Assembly (NCBI GenBank): GCA_030537525.1
Contig: JAUNVU010000009.1
Span: 1-35,442, forward strand
DNA: 35,442 nt
Direction of reading: 5' to 3'
DNA from: Eubacteriales bacterium
GTDB taxonomy: Bacteria > Bacillota > Clostridia > Saccharofermentanales > DTU023
Below are positions 3,323-29,838 of this stretch, one piece after another. The notes beneath the pieces were generated by a model that worked only from the letters and a program-made list of their open reading frames with translations, was not told the DNA's origin and made no database searches. Within the stretch, counting starts at the first letter, position 1. The number at the start of each line of letters is the position of its first letter. The position numbers and the translations under genes are program-made.

Positions 3323-4636
3323 ATGGCAAAATCAAGTCGTGCCAGATTTGGTGAGCGTGCCAGCCTGATCCCATTTTTCAGTCTGTTGGCCCTGCTAATT
3401 CTGGCTACATTATTGTGTATCTTTGGCTGGACGACGCCTCTGAAGAATGCACAGGGAGAACGAATTCGCCTAAAGGGTGCACAAGAAATGCGCTACGGCA
3501 CTGATATTAGAGGTGGCGTTGAGGCGGTATTTGCACCACATAATTTCGATGTCAAACCAAGCCCAGAGCAGCTCGATGCAGCTGCGAAAGTCTTGAATTT
3601 CCGCTTAGATAAGCTGCAGATTCTAGACCGAGAGCTGACCACTAGTCCGAGTGCAGGTCGCCTAATCTTGAGGTTCCCCTGGCGTTCAGATGAAACAGAA
3701 TTTAAGCCAGAGACGGCACTGAAGGAATTGGGTGAAATGGCTTACCTGACCTTCAGGAAGCCTGATGGCACAGTGGCCATTGACGGTTCAGACGTCGAAG
3801 AGGCCTCTGTCGTCCTCGACCAGAGAACGAACACGCCAGTTGTTGCCTTGAAATTGAAGGAAGAAGGTGCCCAGAAATTCGCCGACGTCACAGGTGAGCT
3901 GGTAGGCAAGCCGCTGGCCATCTACCTAGACGAGACCATGCTCTCAGCACCTGTAGTCAGAGATCGAATCACTGGCGGTGCGGCGACCATTCAACGCGAG
4001 AATATGACTAGTGAAGAGGCCTTCGATTTAGCATCGAAGATCAATGGCGGTGCTCTGCCATTCGCTTTGAAGCCAATTTCCTCTTCATCCTTGAGTCCGA
4101 AATTAGGTCAAAACTCACTGCATCTAATGACTCTAGCGGGTGCTATTTCCTTCATCTTGATCTGCATTTACATGGTAGTTTTCTACAGATTGCCTGGTTT
4201 CATTGGCTGTATCTCATTAACCGCTCAGTTGGTTGGTGTATTACTGGCCATCTCACTACCGCAGCAGACTCTGACTCTTCAGGGTATAGCAGGTATTATT
4301 CTGTCGATAGGAATGGGTGTTGATGCCAATATCATCATCTCCTCGCGAATTAAGGAGGAGGCGAGGAAAGGTTTGACCTTGCCAAGCTTCTTGCACAATG
4401 GTTTCACCAAGGCTTTTTCCTCTGTTATGGACTCTAACGTAACTGTTGCTATTGCAGCCATAGTTTTGATGTTCTTCGGCTCAGGGACTATTCTGTCATT
4501 TGCCTATTCATTACTCGCTGGTGTCATTCTCAACGGTATCACTGGTGTCTGGATGACACGTAAGATGATTGCATCGCTGACGAAGATCGAAGCACTGCGC
4601 AAGCCCTATCTCTATGGCGCAAGGAGGAATGCCTAA
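3323..4636 (+). CDS. secD: Protein translocase subunit SecD
   Basis: The product is the SecD half of the SecDF accessory complex, which uses the proton gradient to pull exported proteins through SecYEG. It is 437 residues. One N-terminal membrane segment (about residues 17-37) is followed by a large extracytoplasmic domain carrying the DIRGG motif near residue 63, then a C-terminal block of about five membrane segments. The transmembrane-4 signature appears as GMGVDANIIISSRIKEE (around 331-347); the family usually has GMAVDANVLIFERIKEE. The length is normal for Gram-positive SecD. The ribosome binding site is modest (GAGAGG). The stop and the secF start share one base (TAATG), so the two subunits are translationally coupled. 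Confidence 0.95.
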   Translation: MAKSSRARFGERASLIPFFSLLALLILATLLCIFGWTTPLKNAQGERIRLKGAQEMRYGTDIRGGVEAVFAPHNFDVKPSPEQLDAAAKVLNFRLDKLQILDRELTTSPSAGRLILRFPWRSDETEFKPETALKELGEMAYLTFRKPDGTVAIDGSDVEEASVVLDQRTNTPVVALKLKEEGAQKFADVTGELVGKPLAIYLDETMLSAPVVRDRITGGAATIQRENMTSEEAFDLASKINGGALPFALKPISSSSLSPKLGQNSLHLMTLAGAISFILICIYMVVFYRLPGFIGCISLTAQLVGVLLAISLPQQTLTLQGIAGIILSIGMGVDANIIISSRIKEEARKGLTLPSFLHNGFTKAFSSVMDSNVTVAIAAIVLMFFGSGTILSFAYSLLAGVILNGITGVWMTRKMIASLTKIEALRKPYLYGARRNA

Positions 4637-5616
4637 TGGAAAAAGAACTTAAGCAAGGCCGCTTCGCACCACGGATGGTAGCAGGCCGGAAGATCTATCC
4701 CTTTATCGAGAATCGCCGTTACTACTTATTTATCGCTATTGGCTTGATAGTCCTCGGTTTCATCCTTGCCTTGTGGCGTGGTTTTGAATTAGATATTGAA
4801 TTTAAGGGCGGCTCAATGATCGACTACACCTATAGTGGCGAGATTGATCCAGATGAGGTAAATGCGATGCTCTCAGATGAATTCTCAGAACCAGTCAACT
4901 GTCAGATCTCCAGAGCTATTGGTTCTGGTGATTCCAATCTCAAGGTTTCGGTGGCTGGTAATGAGGCCCTGAGTCCAGAGCAGCTAGGTGAATTGACCGC
5001 GATTCTCAATGAACAGTATCCAGGACATGATTTTGAGATTTATGAAGCCAATCTGGTCTCACCATCAATTGGTCGTGAGCTTCTGAGAAATGGCCTCTTG
5101 GCATTAGTTATTGCCTCGCTCTTAATTATCGCCTATGTCTGGCTGTCGTTTAGAACTATGTCAGGTCCCTCTGCAGGTGTCATGGCTCTAGTTGCTCTCT
5201 TCCACGATACACTTCTGGCCTTCCTGGCCTTCGTCATCATGGGTTCGGCGATCAATGAGACATTAATAGCAGTCATCCTGACCATCCTTGGTTTCTCGAT
5301 TAACGATACCATTGTCATCTATGACAGAATCCGAGAAAACATTGGCCTATACAGAGAAGAGCTGTCTTTCGTGGACATTCTGGATCTCTCGATCAGCCAG
5401 TCTCTTGGCCGGACGATATCCACCTCTCTTTGTATTTTTGTCGCCGTTGTAACCGCTTATATTTTCGCTCTTTTATATAATTTGGAGAGTATTAAAGAAT
5501 TTGCCCTGCCTATCTTGGTGGGTGTAATCAGTGGTACTTTCTCTTCAATCACAATTTCTACACCGCTCTGGGCGGCCTGGAAAATGCGAGATGGTCGCAC
5601 TGGCCTAGAAGATTAA
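4636..5616 (+). CDS. secF: Protein translocase subunit SecF
   Basis: This is the partner of SecD, 326 residues with six predicted membrane segments. The first is near residues 28-46, and the rest are in the C-terminal half after the extracytoplasmic domain. The conserved FKGGS near the start of the external domain and the FSINDTIVIYDRIREN signature in the membrane block identify the family. An AAGGAGG site lies inside the end of secD, and the start overlaps the secD stop by one base. The next gene starts 19 bases downstream, so the exported proteins that follow are probably on the same transcript. No terminator is visible between them. Confidence 0.95.
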   Translation: MEKELKQGRFAPRMVAGRKIYPFIENRRYYLFIAIGLIVLGFILALWRGFELDIEFKGGSMIDYTYSGEIDPDEVNAMLSDEFSEPVNCQISRAIGSGDSNLKVSVAGNEALSPEQLGELTAILNEQYPGHDFEIYEANLVSPSIGRELLRNGLLALVIASLLIIAYVWLSFRTMSGPSAGVMALVALFHDTLLAFLAFVIMGSAINETLIAVILTILGFSINDTIVIYDRIRENIGLYREELSFVDILDLSISQSLGRTISTSLCIFVAVVTAYIFALLYNLESIKEFALPILVGVISGTFSSITISTPLWAAWKMRDGRTGLED

Positions 5617-5635: not shown

Positions 5636-6130
5636 ATGCTCAGAGCTTTTAAGGAGAAAATTTGTAGATGCGGCAAGTCCCTTGCCCAAATTACGCTAGC
5701 TGTCTTGCTCACGACTACAGTTGCCATCAGCGCTAGCCCAAGGCTTGAAGCGGGCTGATGCACAAGGCCAGAGCTGGCAGTTGGCCAGAATGGAGAAGCG
5801 AGAGACATCAGAGCTAATAGAGCTTATTACAGCAGGAGGTATAGCAGACTGTTATACGGTCAAGTCTGGGATAAGTATAAATACAATCTAGCTCATAAGC
5901 AGTATATTTATTACAACTATCCTTACAATGATGAGCAGAATAGCAGATATACCGCCAATGCATTTAGAAAATTTGAATATGAAAATGCAAATTTAGGGTA
6001 TTATAAATATGAGCCAAGAGAGGAATCCAGAACTGTGGATTACGATCAATTAAGTAGTGATTTCATCAAGCAGTTGTGGAGCAACTTGAGTCGAAATAAG
6101 CATTTTGACTCAGGTCATCGTCACAGATAA
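5636..6130 (+). CDS. Exported protein of unknown function with in-frame UGA at codon 41
   Basis: A good ribosome binding site (AGGAG) precedes ATG 5636. The first 40 codons encode a signal peptide: a basic start, a hydrophobic core around residues 15-31, then SASPRLEAG. Codon 41 is UGA (5756-5758). The same frame then stays open for 123 codons to TAA at 6128-6130. That downstream part is rich in Tyr, Asn, Arg and Lys, is AT-rich compared with its neighbours, and has no recognisable domain. No start codon with a ribosome binding site follows the UGA, so the downstream part needs readthrough to be made. If UGA acts as a stop, the product is only a 40-residue secreted peptide. The signal peptide resembles that of the next gene, which also carries a UGA at the same place. 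A recent nonsense mutation is the alternative. Confidence 0.55.
5774..5788 (+). promoter_or_regulatory. Stem-loop downstream of in-frame UGA (SECIS-like candidate)
   Basis: CTGGC (5774-5778), loop AGTTG, GCCAG (5784-5788) form a perfect 5-bp stem. The loop starts 21 bases after the UGA at 5756-5758 and has G at its second position. Other pairings compete here, such as GGCCA 5766-5770 with TGGCC 5782-5786, so the fold is uncertain. Confidence 0.3.
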
Positions 6131-6143
6131 TTAGGAGAAAGCG

Positions 6144-7799
6144 ATGTTTAAGCATTTAAGAAATAATAAGAGCATAGCTCAGAAGCTCATGCAATTTGGC
6201 TTGGCCATATTGCTGAGCACGAGTATTGTGTTGTCCGCCAGCCCCAAGGCATATGGTTGAGGCCCGAGGCCGACGGACTGTAGTCCGTCAGATCAGGGTA
6301 AGAACCCAAGACCTCCAGTTAATATTGACTGGGAGAAGTACGTCGACACTACAAAGGACAATAGACCGGCCCAGACAACTACTAAGAAGGCAGAGACTAC
6401 AACTACCACTACCGCAACCACGACTACGACCACTACGACTGAGCAGACCTCTGAGAATCAGGAGCCTAGCAGCGCTGATCCAACGCCTTCAGCAAGCAAT
6501 ACTGAGCCCTCACAGAATGCTACGAATCCAAGTGAGACTAGTCAGCAGCCAGCTGATAATACTGGTGTAGATACTGCTTCTGGTCCAGTCTATCCCAGCC
6601 GTCAGGAGGTCTCTGCACAGGCCTACCTGGTGATTGACTTGGAAAATGGTCAGGAATTAACCAGCGAGAATGCCAATCTACCACTGTCTATGGCGGCCTT
6701 CGTACGTCTGATGACTCTGAAAACTGTTTTAGATGCAACTGACTACAGCCCAAGTCGACTGGTCACCATACCAGCGTCTGAGCGTCCAGAACAGACCTTC
6801 TTTGCAGGCGAGCAGGTCAGCACGGAAACGGCCATTTTCGCCATGCTCTTTGCCGATTCTGCAGATGCTGCCGAAGCTCTGGCCAATACCTACGGTCCTG
6901 GTCAAGAAGCCTTCGTTGCCGAGATGAATCGCAAGGCAAGCGAACTTGGTATGAACAGCGTCTCGTTTAACGATGCGACAGGAGAATCGCATGGTACTCT
7001 GATCACGGCTAAAGAATTGGCGACTCTGGTCAAGAGTTTGCGCAAGCATCCTGAGTACTCAGAGATCTATAGGCGTCAGAGCTACTTGATTCCGCAGAGT
7101 AATCTGCGTACGGCTACTAATATGACCGTTATAGATAATCCAGCGCGTGCTCTAGATTCCATGAGTTCACCGTACCTTTATCTACTGAAGGGTCTGATGG
7201 TTACTGCCAATGCCGACAATTGGTCATACGGTATAGCGGAAGCTGTTACCACTGGTGAACGCGAGGTCCTGGCCATTGTCATGGGCGCCTCAGCAAATAA
7301 CGAGGAGATCTCTGGCAATGCCAAGGCCCTCTACGCCTTGCGTGCTATGCTCGAGGATTCTGCTATTGCAGCGGGTGCAAGCCCGCAGGGTAAGTCGCTT
7401 CTAGCTGAGAAGAGCAGTGCTGCGCAGCCTTCGGAGACTGAGCCCAGTGAAGTAGAAGAGACAGCTGCTGTAATCGTCGAAACAACAAGTGAAACCACTC
7501 CTGTGATTACGACTACAGAAGCACCGGCTGAAGTCGACGTCAAGAAGAGCCCACGCCACTTCATCAAGATTCTGATGTATAGTCTGGGCGGTCTCCTATC
7601 ACTAGCCATCATCTTCCTGATTGTTGCCTTGATCCGTCAGCGCAATATTGAGAAACGCGAGATCACAGCGGTACGTCGTCCAAGCCAGCCACGACCACGT
7701 CGTCAAGGTAGACCTGGCCCACGTCGTCCAGAGAATCTGGATAGGAGAGGACAGAAGCGTCCTAACAGACCTCAGCCCAGACCTCGAAATCTCGATTAA
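6144..7799 (+). CDS. Membrane-anchored D-Ala-D-Ala carboxypeptidase-like pseudoenzyme with in-frame UGA at codon 39
   Basis: AGGAG precedes ATG 6144. Residues 1-38 form a signal peptide, codon 39 is UGA (6258-6260), and the frame continues to TAA at 7799 (551 codons). A Pro/Thr/Ser-rich linker (about 40-155, including 14 Thr in 15 codons at 6396-6440) leads to a peptidase S11 fold (about 158-385). A C-terminal membrane segment (about 475-498) and an Arg/Pro-rich cytoplasmic tail follow. The S11 match is clear, for example DATGESHGTLITAKELA. The catalytic motifs are not: SxxK reads AFVR (185-188), SxN aligns with DSA, and KTG is replaced. It therefore probably binds or scaffolds the cell wall without cleaving it. 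The first start after the UGA, GTG 6630, has its nearest ribosome binding site 20 bases away and would drop the signal peptide, so readthrough is the simplest route to the full protein. Confidence 0.7.
6272..6289 (+). promoter_or_regulatory. Perfect hairpin 11 nt after the in-frame UGA (SECIS-like candidate)
   Basis: GACGGAC (6272-6278), loop TGTA, GTCCGTC (6283-6289) form a perfect 7-bp stem. It begins 11 bases after the UGA (6258-6260), the same offset as the upper SECIS stem of E. coli fdhF. The loop has G at position 2 but lacks the E. coli GGUC loop and bulged U. Confidence 0.4.
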
Positions 7800-7984: not shown

Positions 7985-8413
7985 ATGAAAACACCAATTC
8001 TCAAAGCGTCAGAAATTGAACGCAAGTGGTATGTGGTAGATGCTGAGGGCCAGACCCTTGGTCGCCTCGCCAGCCAGGTCAGCGCAATCCTCAAGGGTAA
8101 GCACAAGGCTGAATACAGCCCCTTCCAGGATCATGGCGACTATGTAGTCATCATCAATGCTGAGAAGATTCACGTTACTGGTCGTAAGGCGGAACAGAAA
8201 CTCTATCGCCACCACTCCACCTATCCAGGCGGACTCAAGGAAGTACCTTGGAAGGAGATGCTGGCCAAGCATCCTGAGCGCATCCTCGAACGTGCTATAA
8301 AGGGCATGCTCCCGAAGAATTCGCTCGGTCGTCAGATGTACAGGAAACTTAAGGTCTACGCAGGTAGTGAGCACCCACACGCTGCCCAGAAGCCCGAGAA
8401 GCTGGAATTTTAG
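7985..8413 (+). CDS. rplM: 50S ribosomal protein L13 (uL13)
   Basis: Large-subunit assembly protein of 142 residues, the normal length. Recognisable blocks are [18 protein letters not shown] at the N terminus, the RHHSTYPGG segment in the middle and the [25 protein letters not shown] region. A TTAGGAG site sits 6 bases before the ATG. It is followed after 10 bases by rpsI, the near-universal L13-S9 pair, and is transcribed from the promoter at 7884-7912. Confidence 0.97.
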
Positions 8414-8423
8414 GAGAAGATAG

Positions 8424-8816
8424 ATGAAAGATTTTGCATACGGCACAGGTCGCCGCAAAGAATCCGTAGCCCGCGTTCGTCTAGTTCACGGCCAGGGCAA
8501 GATTGAAATTAATGGCAAGGAATTTGAAGAGTATCTACCTCTCGGCACCCTACGCTATATAGTTGAACAGCCCCTCCGTGCCTGTGGTGTCCGCGATAGC
8601 TTTGACGTCATTGTCAAGGTCCATGGCGGTGGTATCTCAGGTCAGGCTGGCGCAATCCGCCACGGTATTGCCCGCGCTCTCTGCGATGAGAACGCCGATG
8701 AATACCGCGCCACTCTCAAGAAGGCAGGCTTCCTCACTAGAGACGCTCGCAAGAAGGAGCGTAAGAAGCCAGGTCTCCGCAAGGCCCGTAAGGCTGGCCA
8801 ATACTCCAAGCGTTAA
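8424..8816 (+). CDS. rpsI: 30S ribosomal protein S9 (uS9)
   Basis: Small-subunit protein of 130 residues. The N-terminal [14 protein letters not shown] block, the central [19 protein letters not shown] segment and the basic C terminus ending in QYSKR are all typical. The C-terminal SKR tail reaches the ribosomal P site in characterised ribosomes. An AGGAGAAG site precedes the ATG. It is the second gene of the rplM-rpsI operon, which ends at the terminator at 8844-8870. Confidence 0.97.
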
Positions 8817-28266: not shown

Positions 28267-29838
28267 TTATTGATATCTTGCTATTAATCGCTTGAGTCCA
28301 GTTAAAATTTCCTCGAGTTCCAATCCTGATCTTTCGGCCATGTCGGCGACCTTGGCCTTCGGGATCATAATCCTAGCTAGGGGTGTCTTCAGCATTTTGA
28401 AGGCAGGTGATAGCTCCACCAAGTCATCTTTCAAACTAGGATAGTCGGCCAAGAGGTCCTTTAGGCGAGTTTCGGCAGAGATGTTTTCAATATCGACAAC
28501 GAACTTAGCTTTGGCATTATTAGCCTCTTTTGCTGGGGTGTCTTGAGAGCTTATTTCAGCATTCTCTTCTGCGGGTTCCGCTTTACCCCAGTTGAGCAGA
28601 GTTTGTGAGCCTTTTAAGGATCGAATATGTGTACAGTCTTGCATCATTTCGAGTACGCCGCGGAATTTACCTTCGTCATCGCGGACAGCAGTATAGAAGA
28701 TGTAGATGAAGAGGTCAGGCTTATTGATCCAGAATTCTGCTGTATCTTGCTCACCGCTGCGGAATTTTTCAATAATCTCTTCAACGATATGAACGCTCTT
28801 TCGAGGATGACAATTTTTGACATCACGGCCGATGACATTTTTACTGCGTGGGAAGACGCGATGGGCTGTATCTGAGTAGAAGCGGACAATTTCGTTTTCA
28901 TCGACATAGGAGAGGTCGACTGGTAAGTGCTTATAGATCAAATTGATCTGCTCAAGTGTCAATTCACCCTGAGCAACCTTGAGCTTACTGTCTTTTGCTG
29001 CGATTTCACCAACTCCATACTTCTCAAAGACGGTCAAGAGCTCACTGAGCATGGCGTCGGATTTCTCATTGTAAGCTGGAGTGCTGTCTGGCTGGCCTTG
29101 AACTGCAAGCTCTGTCTGTTCTGGATCAATCCAAGCATAGCCAATTTCGCGATCTCCCTCCTTCATCACCTCAAATTCCGCTTCTGGAATCAAGACGAGA
29201 GAGGTCGGGTAGAGGACTTGCTCTTCCTTGGAAATTAGGTCGCGGAGATCTGCAACTAAGGTCGCCTGCTGGGCAATAAATTCTTCCTCATCAGTATCAA
29301 TTAGTTCTCTGAGCTCCTTAATTTCATCGCGAATGAAGTCGTCGAGTGTCCACATCGTGGTCGAGGGACGGTCGAAACCCTTCTGCTCCAGAACTGGATA
29401 AAGTTGATTTTGCTTCCTAGCCAGGTGAATTCGATAGTCATGCAGTTTGTCGTAGAGTTCATACCATTGATTTTTAATTACTGGGTATTGAACAAGATCC
29501 TCAATTGCCAGGCAGAGCTTCTCAAGTTCAGCATTTTCAGCGTAATAATTGTTGAGGGGATGACCGAAGGGTAACTCAGGCCGGCTAGTATCATACAAAC
29601 CTTGATATAGTTTCAACATCTGTTGAATGTCTTCCTTCTGGCATTGGTCGTCGGAGTAGGCCTCGAGCTTCTGCTCGGCTAAAGCTATCTCGTAAGGCTT
29701 GATCGAACTCACACGTTCCCGCAGTTTTGCCTGCGCCTCTTCGAGAGAGAGCTCTCCCTGCTCATAGGCTTCCTTAATGGAGAGAATATATTTCATCTTC
29801 TCAAGATCTAAATTAGGTATATTGTCTTGCATACTCAT
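28267..29838 (-). CDS. DUF438 / hemerythrin-like / PAS / DUF1858 multidomain protein
   Basis: A cytoplasmic protein of 523 residues with no membrane segments. The N-terminal DUF438 region (about 1-90) is followed by a hemerythrin HHE-type four-helix domain (about 90-235), with candidate metal ligands in FGHPLNNYYAENAELE, DYRIHLARKQNQLYPVLE and SKEEQVLYP. A PAS domain comes next (about 300-415, including LSYVDENEIVRFYS and RDVKNCHPRKSVHIVEEI). A Pro/Glu linker leads to a DUF1858-like C terminus (about 443-520). This set is known in anaerobes and suggests a sensor of oxygen, NO or redox state, but no output domain is present. GGAGGTG precedes ATG 29838. Confidence 0.82.
   Translation of the reverse strand: MSMQDNIPNLDLEKMKYILSIKEAYEQGELSLEEAQAKLRERVSSIKPYEIALAEQKLEAYSDDQCQKEDIQQMLKLYQGLYDTSRPELPFGHPLNNYYAENAELEKLCLAIEDLVQYPVIKNQWYELYDKLHDYRIHLARKQNQLYPVLEQKGFDRPSTTMWTLDDFIRDEIKELRELIDTDEEEFIAQQATLVADLRDLISKEEQVLYPTSLVLIPEAEFEVMKEGDREIGYAWIDPEQTELAVQGQPDSTPAYNEKSDAMLSELLTVFEKYGVGEIAAKDSKLKVAQGELTLEQINLIYKHLPVDLSYVDENEIVRFYSDTAHRVFPRSKNVIGRDVKNCHPRKSVHIVEEIIEKFRSGEQDTAEFWINKPDLFIYIFYTAVRDDEGKFRGVLEMMQDCTHIRSLKGSQTLLNWGKAEPAEENAEISSQDTPAKEANNAKAKFVVDIENISAETRLKDLLADYPSLKDDLVELSPAFKMLKTPLARIMIPKAKVADMAERSGLELEEILTGLKRLIARYQ

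Follow-up and report, generated by a model that had tools for sequence, protein, structure and literature searches.

Two adjacent genes whose signal peptides run into an in-frame UGA, predicted to encode exported selenoproteins, between secDF and rplM-rpsI in a clostridial genome

The DNA analysed here (the window) is a stretch of 35,442 nucleotides from a metagenome-assembled genome of a Eubacteriales bacterium (assembly GCA_030537525.1, contig JAUNVU010000009.1; lineage Saccharofermentanales, DTU023). The gene at the start of the contig (29-3049, forward strand) encodes a product of 1006 aa that carries a Cna_B (surface protein) domain. On the same strand, secD and secF (3323..5616) lie directly upstream of gene 1 (5636..6130), which is followed by gene 2 (6144..7799) and, directly downstream of the latter, rplM and rpsI (7985..8816). 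The order of these flanking genes is common to the sister species G001, whose genome (96% complete) is the one further member of the genus that we examined.

Gene 1 starts at 5636 behind an AGGAG-type ribosome binding site (TAGGAGAAAATG) and opens with a predicted signal peptide (5636..5755; MLRAFKEKICRCGKSLAQITLAVLLTTTVAISASPRLEAG) that has an n-region net charge of +4 and a hydrophobic core with a mean KD of 2.04. Codon 41 is UGA (5756..5758), after which 123 codons remain open up to a TAA at 6128-6130; the frame reads MLRAFKEKICRCGKSLAQITLAVLLTTTVAISASPRLEAG-UGA-CTRPELAVGQ.... With the UGA read as selenocysteine (U41), the product would be an exported protein of 164 aa in which the next residue is the sole Cys of the mature chain. 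Gene 2 starts at 6144, also behind an AGGAG-type site (TAGGAGAAAGCGATG). Its signal peptide (6144..6257; MFKHLRNNKSIAQKLMQFGLAILLSTSIVLSASPKAYG) runs into UGA at codon 39 (6258..6260), 512 codons follow with no further stop, and the frame ends with TAA at 7797-7799, reading MFKHLRNNKSIAQKLMQFGLAILLSTSIVLSASPKAYG-UGA-GPRPTDCSPSDQG...; the predicted product is an exported, membrane-anchored protein of 551 aa with U39. Both signal peptides, of 40 and 38 codons, terminate in Gly-UGA. An earlier note on this DNA had described this arrangement, and our analysis confirms it. It had also held that the genetic code is not globally altered, and we concur: a changed code is rejected, with UGA serving as an ordinary stop in 4 of the 28 main genes of the window and a tRNA-Sec present in the genome. 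Scanning the window for UGA codons with a start-containing segment of at least 25 codons before them and at least 90 open codons behind them in frame returned genes 1 and 2 and three sites without gene character.

The two UGA codons cannot be counted as two independent events, as the earlier note had done, because the modules that carry them look duplicated. Aligned at the DNA level, the signal peptide/UGA regions of genes 1 and 2 score 6.0, against -11.2 +/- 4.4 for shuffled sequences (0 of 1000 as high), and the signal peptides are 41% identical. To judge from this similarity, one module is probably a duplicate of the other, and the real independence of the UGA evidence comes from the sister species, not from the two window genes.

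In G001 an ortholog of gene 2, about 50% identical (about 51% over the S11 parts), lies between secF and rplM. Contig C33 of that genome carries secF (82% identical) and then MLNKNARKNLAKKFTRFGQILLALTLALTIQLTAIPEASA-UGA-GTPWPPGPGATSDCDTPDYQK..., and the UGA falls exactly at an Ala-Ser-Ala site (L073: ...PEASA-UGA-GTPWPP...), a textbook signal-peptidase-I site. The contig ends 294 nt into the ortholog, inside an EESKRAEE repeat; contig C26 of G001 begins in the EESKRAEE repeat and continues through the S11 domain into rplM and rpsI, and we joined the two parts by frame and synteny. The EESKRAEE/Q-rich linker of the sister protein (L061 1-220, L073 2400-2515) is unrelated to the Thr-rich linker of gene 2, and from the signal peptide to the domain the two proteins have little in common except the selenocysteine and one Asp-Cys. 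The search of relatives that the earlier note had suggested thus finds the UGA of gene 2 kept in the sister species; gene 1 has no counterpart at the G001 locus. The family of gene 2 is restricted to the two genomes of the genus among 188 genomes of the order, where no other close member was found (E 1e-236, then 1e-32). A model built from the three N-termini brought up no additional member among the family's 38 genomes (best other match E 0.002, without a stop), and scans of genome contigs and of viral contigs gave no close relative. Neither UGA nor Cys stands behind the signal in the other S11 proteins inspected, and no Cys form of the UGA-encoded residue occurs among the relatives inspected.

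Downstream of the UGA, gene 2 encodes an S11-like domain (6594..7148, residues 151-335; Pfam PF00768, E 1.7e-23), with PDB fold matches as good as E 3.7e-15. In the structural model, a disordered region (about residues 32-147), in which the linker from the selenocysteine to the S11 domain would span about 108 residues, precedes the well-predicted domain; after the domain come another linker, a C-terminal helix that holds the membrane anchor (470-509; 7551..7670) and a basic tail. The protein shares fold, export and C-terminal anchor with S11 D-Ala-D-Ala carboxypeptidases (PBP5/PBP6 and B. subtilis DacB; PDB 3mfd, 3it9), but differs from them in its long disordered N-terminal linker with selenocysteine and in lacking SxxK, SxN and KTG. 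As an active S11 D,D-carboxypeptidase it passes on sequence and fold homology and fails on the catalytic motifs. The SxxK position reads A185-F-V-R188, SxN reads S239-A-D241, and KTG reads V-T354-A, near residue 354 and just outside the Pfam match. The altered residues are alike in the two species (AFVR/GFVR, SAD, VTA/FTE), whereas the three motifs are intact in S11 proteins of other genera. Because all three are lost alike in both species, carboxypeptidase activity of the gene 2 domain is very improbable, as far as motifs can tell, although binding to partners in the cell wall or to other proteins is still possible.

Loss of the active site is also what one would expect if the genes were decaying and the UGA codons had arisen by nonsense mutation or assembly error. 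However, the same UGA is found in two separately assembled species, 512 codons follow without another stop, and the active-site residues have changed alike in both. Past the UGA, mismatches between gene 2 and the sister ortholog at the three codon positions amount to 0.40/0.32/0.67 (secF, 0.20/0.08/0.57). Since the mismatch rate at third positions is twice that at second ones, the frame is under coding constraint and purifying selection, as had been proposed together with the S11 assignment and the anchor. We give almost no credence to decay or assembly error, a reading already contradicted for gene 2.

The part of gene 1 behind the UGA is less certain as coding sequence and has no known homologue: none was found in 78 genomes searched, and no Pfam or NCBIfam family matched. 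Its codon score is the highest of the six frames, yet lies 1.9 SD under typical genes, and GC is flat across codon positions. An AlphaFold model, run without an alignment, is unusable (pLDDT 39). The frame ends 13 nt upstream of the gene 2 start, abutting the gene 2 ribosome binding site, which fits a translated gene.

A search of the genome for selenocysteine genes, which the earlier note had recommended, found the complete set. The same metagenome-assembled genome encodes SelA, SelB and SelD (NCBIfam scores of 551, 350 and 384 bits, all over the cut-offs) and a tRNA-Sec with anticodon UCA. These genes are clustered with a glycine reductase operon on its contig C26 (L066 1-20000), where grdA/B/C/D/E, trxA (with a CVPC motif) and trxB lie beside selA, selB, selD and tRNA-Sec. 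In-frame UGA codons stand at the known selenocysteine positions of selD, grdA and grdB, and the genome decodes UGA as selenocysteine.

Hairpins of the required kind follow the UGA codons. The bSECIS model calls for a loop of 3-9 nt that has G (often G[G/U]) among its first two nucleotides and lies 16-37 nt behind the UGA, with an MFE of -7.5 or lower (PMC13188914). The predicted element of gene 1 (5768..5793) has the core stem CUGGC-AGUUG-GCCAG at 5774-5788, its loop 20 nt past the UGA; the predicted core of gene 2 (6272..6289) is GACGGAC-UGUA-GUCCGUC (18 nt), and the sister ortholog has CACCCG-GUC-CGGGUG (19 nt). All three loops fit an N(0-1)GU form. With MFE values of -9.8, -17.9 and -12.4 kcal/mol for gene 1, gene 2 and G001, the distance, loop G and energy criteria are met at all three UGA codons, gene 1 being the weakest. 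The selD and grdB genes of the same genome have AGGGCC-GGA-GGUCCU (17 nt) and CGUUGC-GGU-GCAACG (18 nt). Among 3859 background UGA codons, 3.6% score as high as gene 1, 0.34% as high as gene 2 and 0.78% as high as G001 within 16-37 nt; within 16-21 nt the figures are 1.0%, 0.08% and 0.16%, which are indicative only, as this spacing was set after selD and grdB had been seen. By energy alone, 23% of random UGA codons reach -7.5, and only gene 2 clearly stands out. The stems of gene 2 and the sister ortholog have no common sequence and lie at a like distance; on the predicted pairings, it is the structure of the hairpin and not its sequence that is kept between species. The grdA gene of the same genome does not fit the simple model, and a subset of bSECIS elements is known to fall outside it (PMC13188914). 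A search with SECIS_1 (RF00031) gave no match, but none in any control either.

Programmed readthrough by an ordinary tRNA, with the hairpins as stimulators rather than SECIS elements, has to be weighed at this point. UGA is the leakiest stop codon, and downstream hairpins can increase readthrough. Against this stand the complete selenocysteine system, with other UGA-selenocysteine genes in the genome, and the agreement of the G[G/U] loop and its distance with selD and grdB; we regard readthrough as scarcely credible. Among the options named at the outset (readthrough, selenocysteine or a regulatory stop), the machinery, the UGA of the sister species and the SECIS-type hairpins favour selenocysteine.

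In genes 1 and 2 the UGA lies at the predicted signal-peptidase site. Placed according to the -3/-1 rule, without SignalP, the likely cuts are PEASA|U in the sister protein, PKAYG|U in gene 2 and PRLEA|GU in gene 1, with a proline five residues before the cut in all three; the exact site is inferred. The predicted mature N-terminal peptides are U-GPRPTDCSPSDQGK, U-CTR or GU-CTR, and also PELAVGQNGEAR. Each of the three mature chains has exactly one selenocysteine and one Cys, spaced U-C in gene 1, U-x6-C in gene 2 and U-x13-C in the sister species. A selenocysteine placed right where the signal peptide ends, preceded by Gly or Ala as in a lipobox, could also replace the lipobox Cys of a lipoprotein, a selenol being in principle able to stand in for a thiol: diacylglycerol would be attached to selenium, signal peptidase II would cut before the selenocysteine and the N-terminus would be anchored. 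We consider this very unlikely. Charged residues (K, E and E, at position -4 or -3) break the lipobox, and selenocysteine stands where a lipoprotein has Cys at +1, whereas a likely true lipoprotein of the same genome (L066 17105) has a clean LGILGC box; moreover, the sister protein has the signal-peptidase-I site ASA, and gene 2 is already anchored at its C-terminus.

Our preferred explanation is that both genes encode selenoproteins exported by the Sec pathway with selenocysteine at or near the mature N-terminus, where a redox role is the best reading; as a whole we give this a probability of roughly 0.88. By inference, SelB and Sec-tRNA would read the UGA as selenocysteine because a SECIS hairpin lies 18-20 nt downstream. 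Signal peptidase I would then cut at or beside the encoded residue, leaving selenocysteine as the first mature residue in gene 2 and the first or second in gene 1, and the single selenocysteine and single Cys could join in a selenenylsulfide. The Se/S pair of gene 2 would sit at the end of a long disordered tether on a membrane-anchored S11 domain outside the membrane, as a tethered extracytoplasmic redox centre for thiol/selenol exchange or peroxide reduction. Selenocysteine insertion, for which there is no protein-level or chemical evidence, is highly likely overall, more strongly so for gene 2 and somewhat less so, while still probable, for gene 1. The redox role at the cell surface is inferred by analogy with most selenoproteins, and we put it at about even odds. 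The evidence is limited to two species and to metagenome-assembled or draft genomes, with no reads behind the UGA calls.

In another genus of the same family (g7), SecD, SecF and an S11 D,D-carboxypeptidase are encoded in one open frame of 1220-1245 aa (L062 4507-8244, forward strand; L076 4098-7760, reverse strand), the counterpart of the secDF/gene 2 locus. Pfam recognizes SecDF_P1_head, SecD_SecF_C twice and Peptidase_S11 in this fusion, and its S11 active site is intact. An S11 enzyme fused to SecDF ties the gene 2 protein to the export machinery; that exported proteins are its substrates, given its place beside SecDF, is a guess.

The UGA might instead be mainly a regulatory checkpoint, with translation stopping after the signal peptide when selenium is low and the residue itself mattering little. 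The codon is met at about 40 residues, just when the signal comes out of the ribosome, and is kept in two species; if so, synthesis and export would be coupled to selenium supply. The lone Cys paired with selenocysteine in each mature chain suggests a chemical role, however, and we think a primarily regulatory function unlikely; it is compatible with selenocysteine insertion and can hold in addition. Equally improbable in our estimation is attachment chemistry, in which the free amine and selenol of an N-terminal selenocysteine would fix the protein covalently after cleavage, by a bond to lipid or by Se-S or Se-Se to the product of the adjacent gene or to some other surface protein. This would amount to selenium-based anchoring or cross-linking of envelope proteins beside the Sec translocon.

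Genes 1 and 2 share the in-frame UGA and the SelA/SelB/SelD/tRNA-Sec system with known bSECIS selenoproteins such as SelD, GrdA and GrdB of this genome, and with selD and grdB also the hairpin with a G[G/U] loop, which lies 17-20 nt from the UGA across these genes. Unlike in these, the selenocysteine would lie at the N-terminus of an exported mature protein rather than inside a folded redox domain as part of a UxxC/CxxU motif, and no Cys homologues were found. Cys-containing homologues are known for most selenoprotein families. A 2026 catalogue of prokaryotic selenoproteins lists 119 families (PMC13188914), none an S11 relative, and neither it nor PMC12013277 contains an S11, carboxypeptidase or signal-peptide selenoprotein. 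Its entries include SaoB/SaoX binding proteins, DsbG-like proteins, TlpA-like UGC proteins, DUF1573 and, as another selenoprotein family, DUF1858 (PMC13188914). The window gene at 28267-29838 (reverse strand), whose product combines hemerythrin, PAS and DUF1858 domains, has no in-frame UGA. The SaoB/SaoX, DsbG-like, TlpA-like and DUF1573 entries are, presumably and judging by family name, exported or envelope selenocysteine proteins, but they are listed by motifs within domains and include no S11 relative. In the open-access literature we found no earlier statement on N-terminal selenocysteine in exported bacterial proteins, and nothing relevant by title or abstract on signal peptidase and selenoproteins together; the one paper in it that links selenoproteins to D-Ala-D-Ala carboxypeptidase describes a genome.

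Selenoproteins as such are known; what is new is the predicted selenocysteine at the mature N-terminus, without known Cys forms and on a non-catalytic S11 carrier. Annotation splits such genes into a peptide of 40 residues and a protein that lacks its beginning, so the class is discarded, and searches based on Cys homologues cannot find them. Most catalogued selenocysteine residues belong to redox motifs of folded domains with Cys counterparts, and genes 1 and 2 suggest a cell-surface use of selenium that has not been described.
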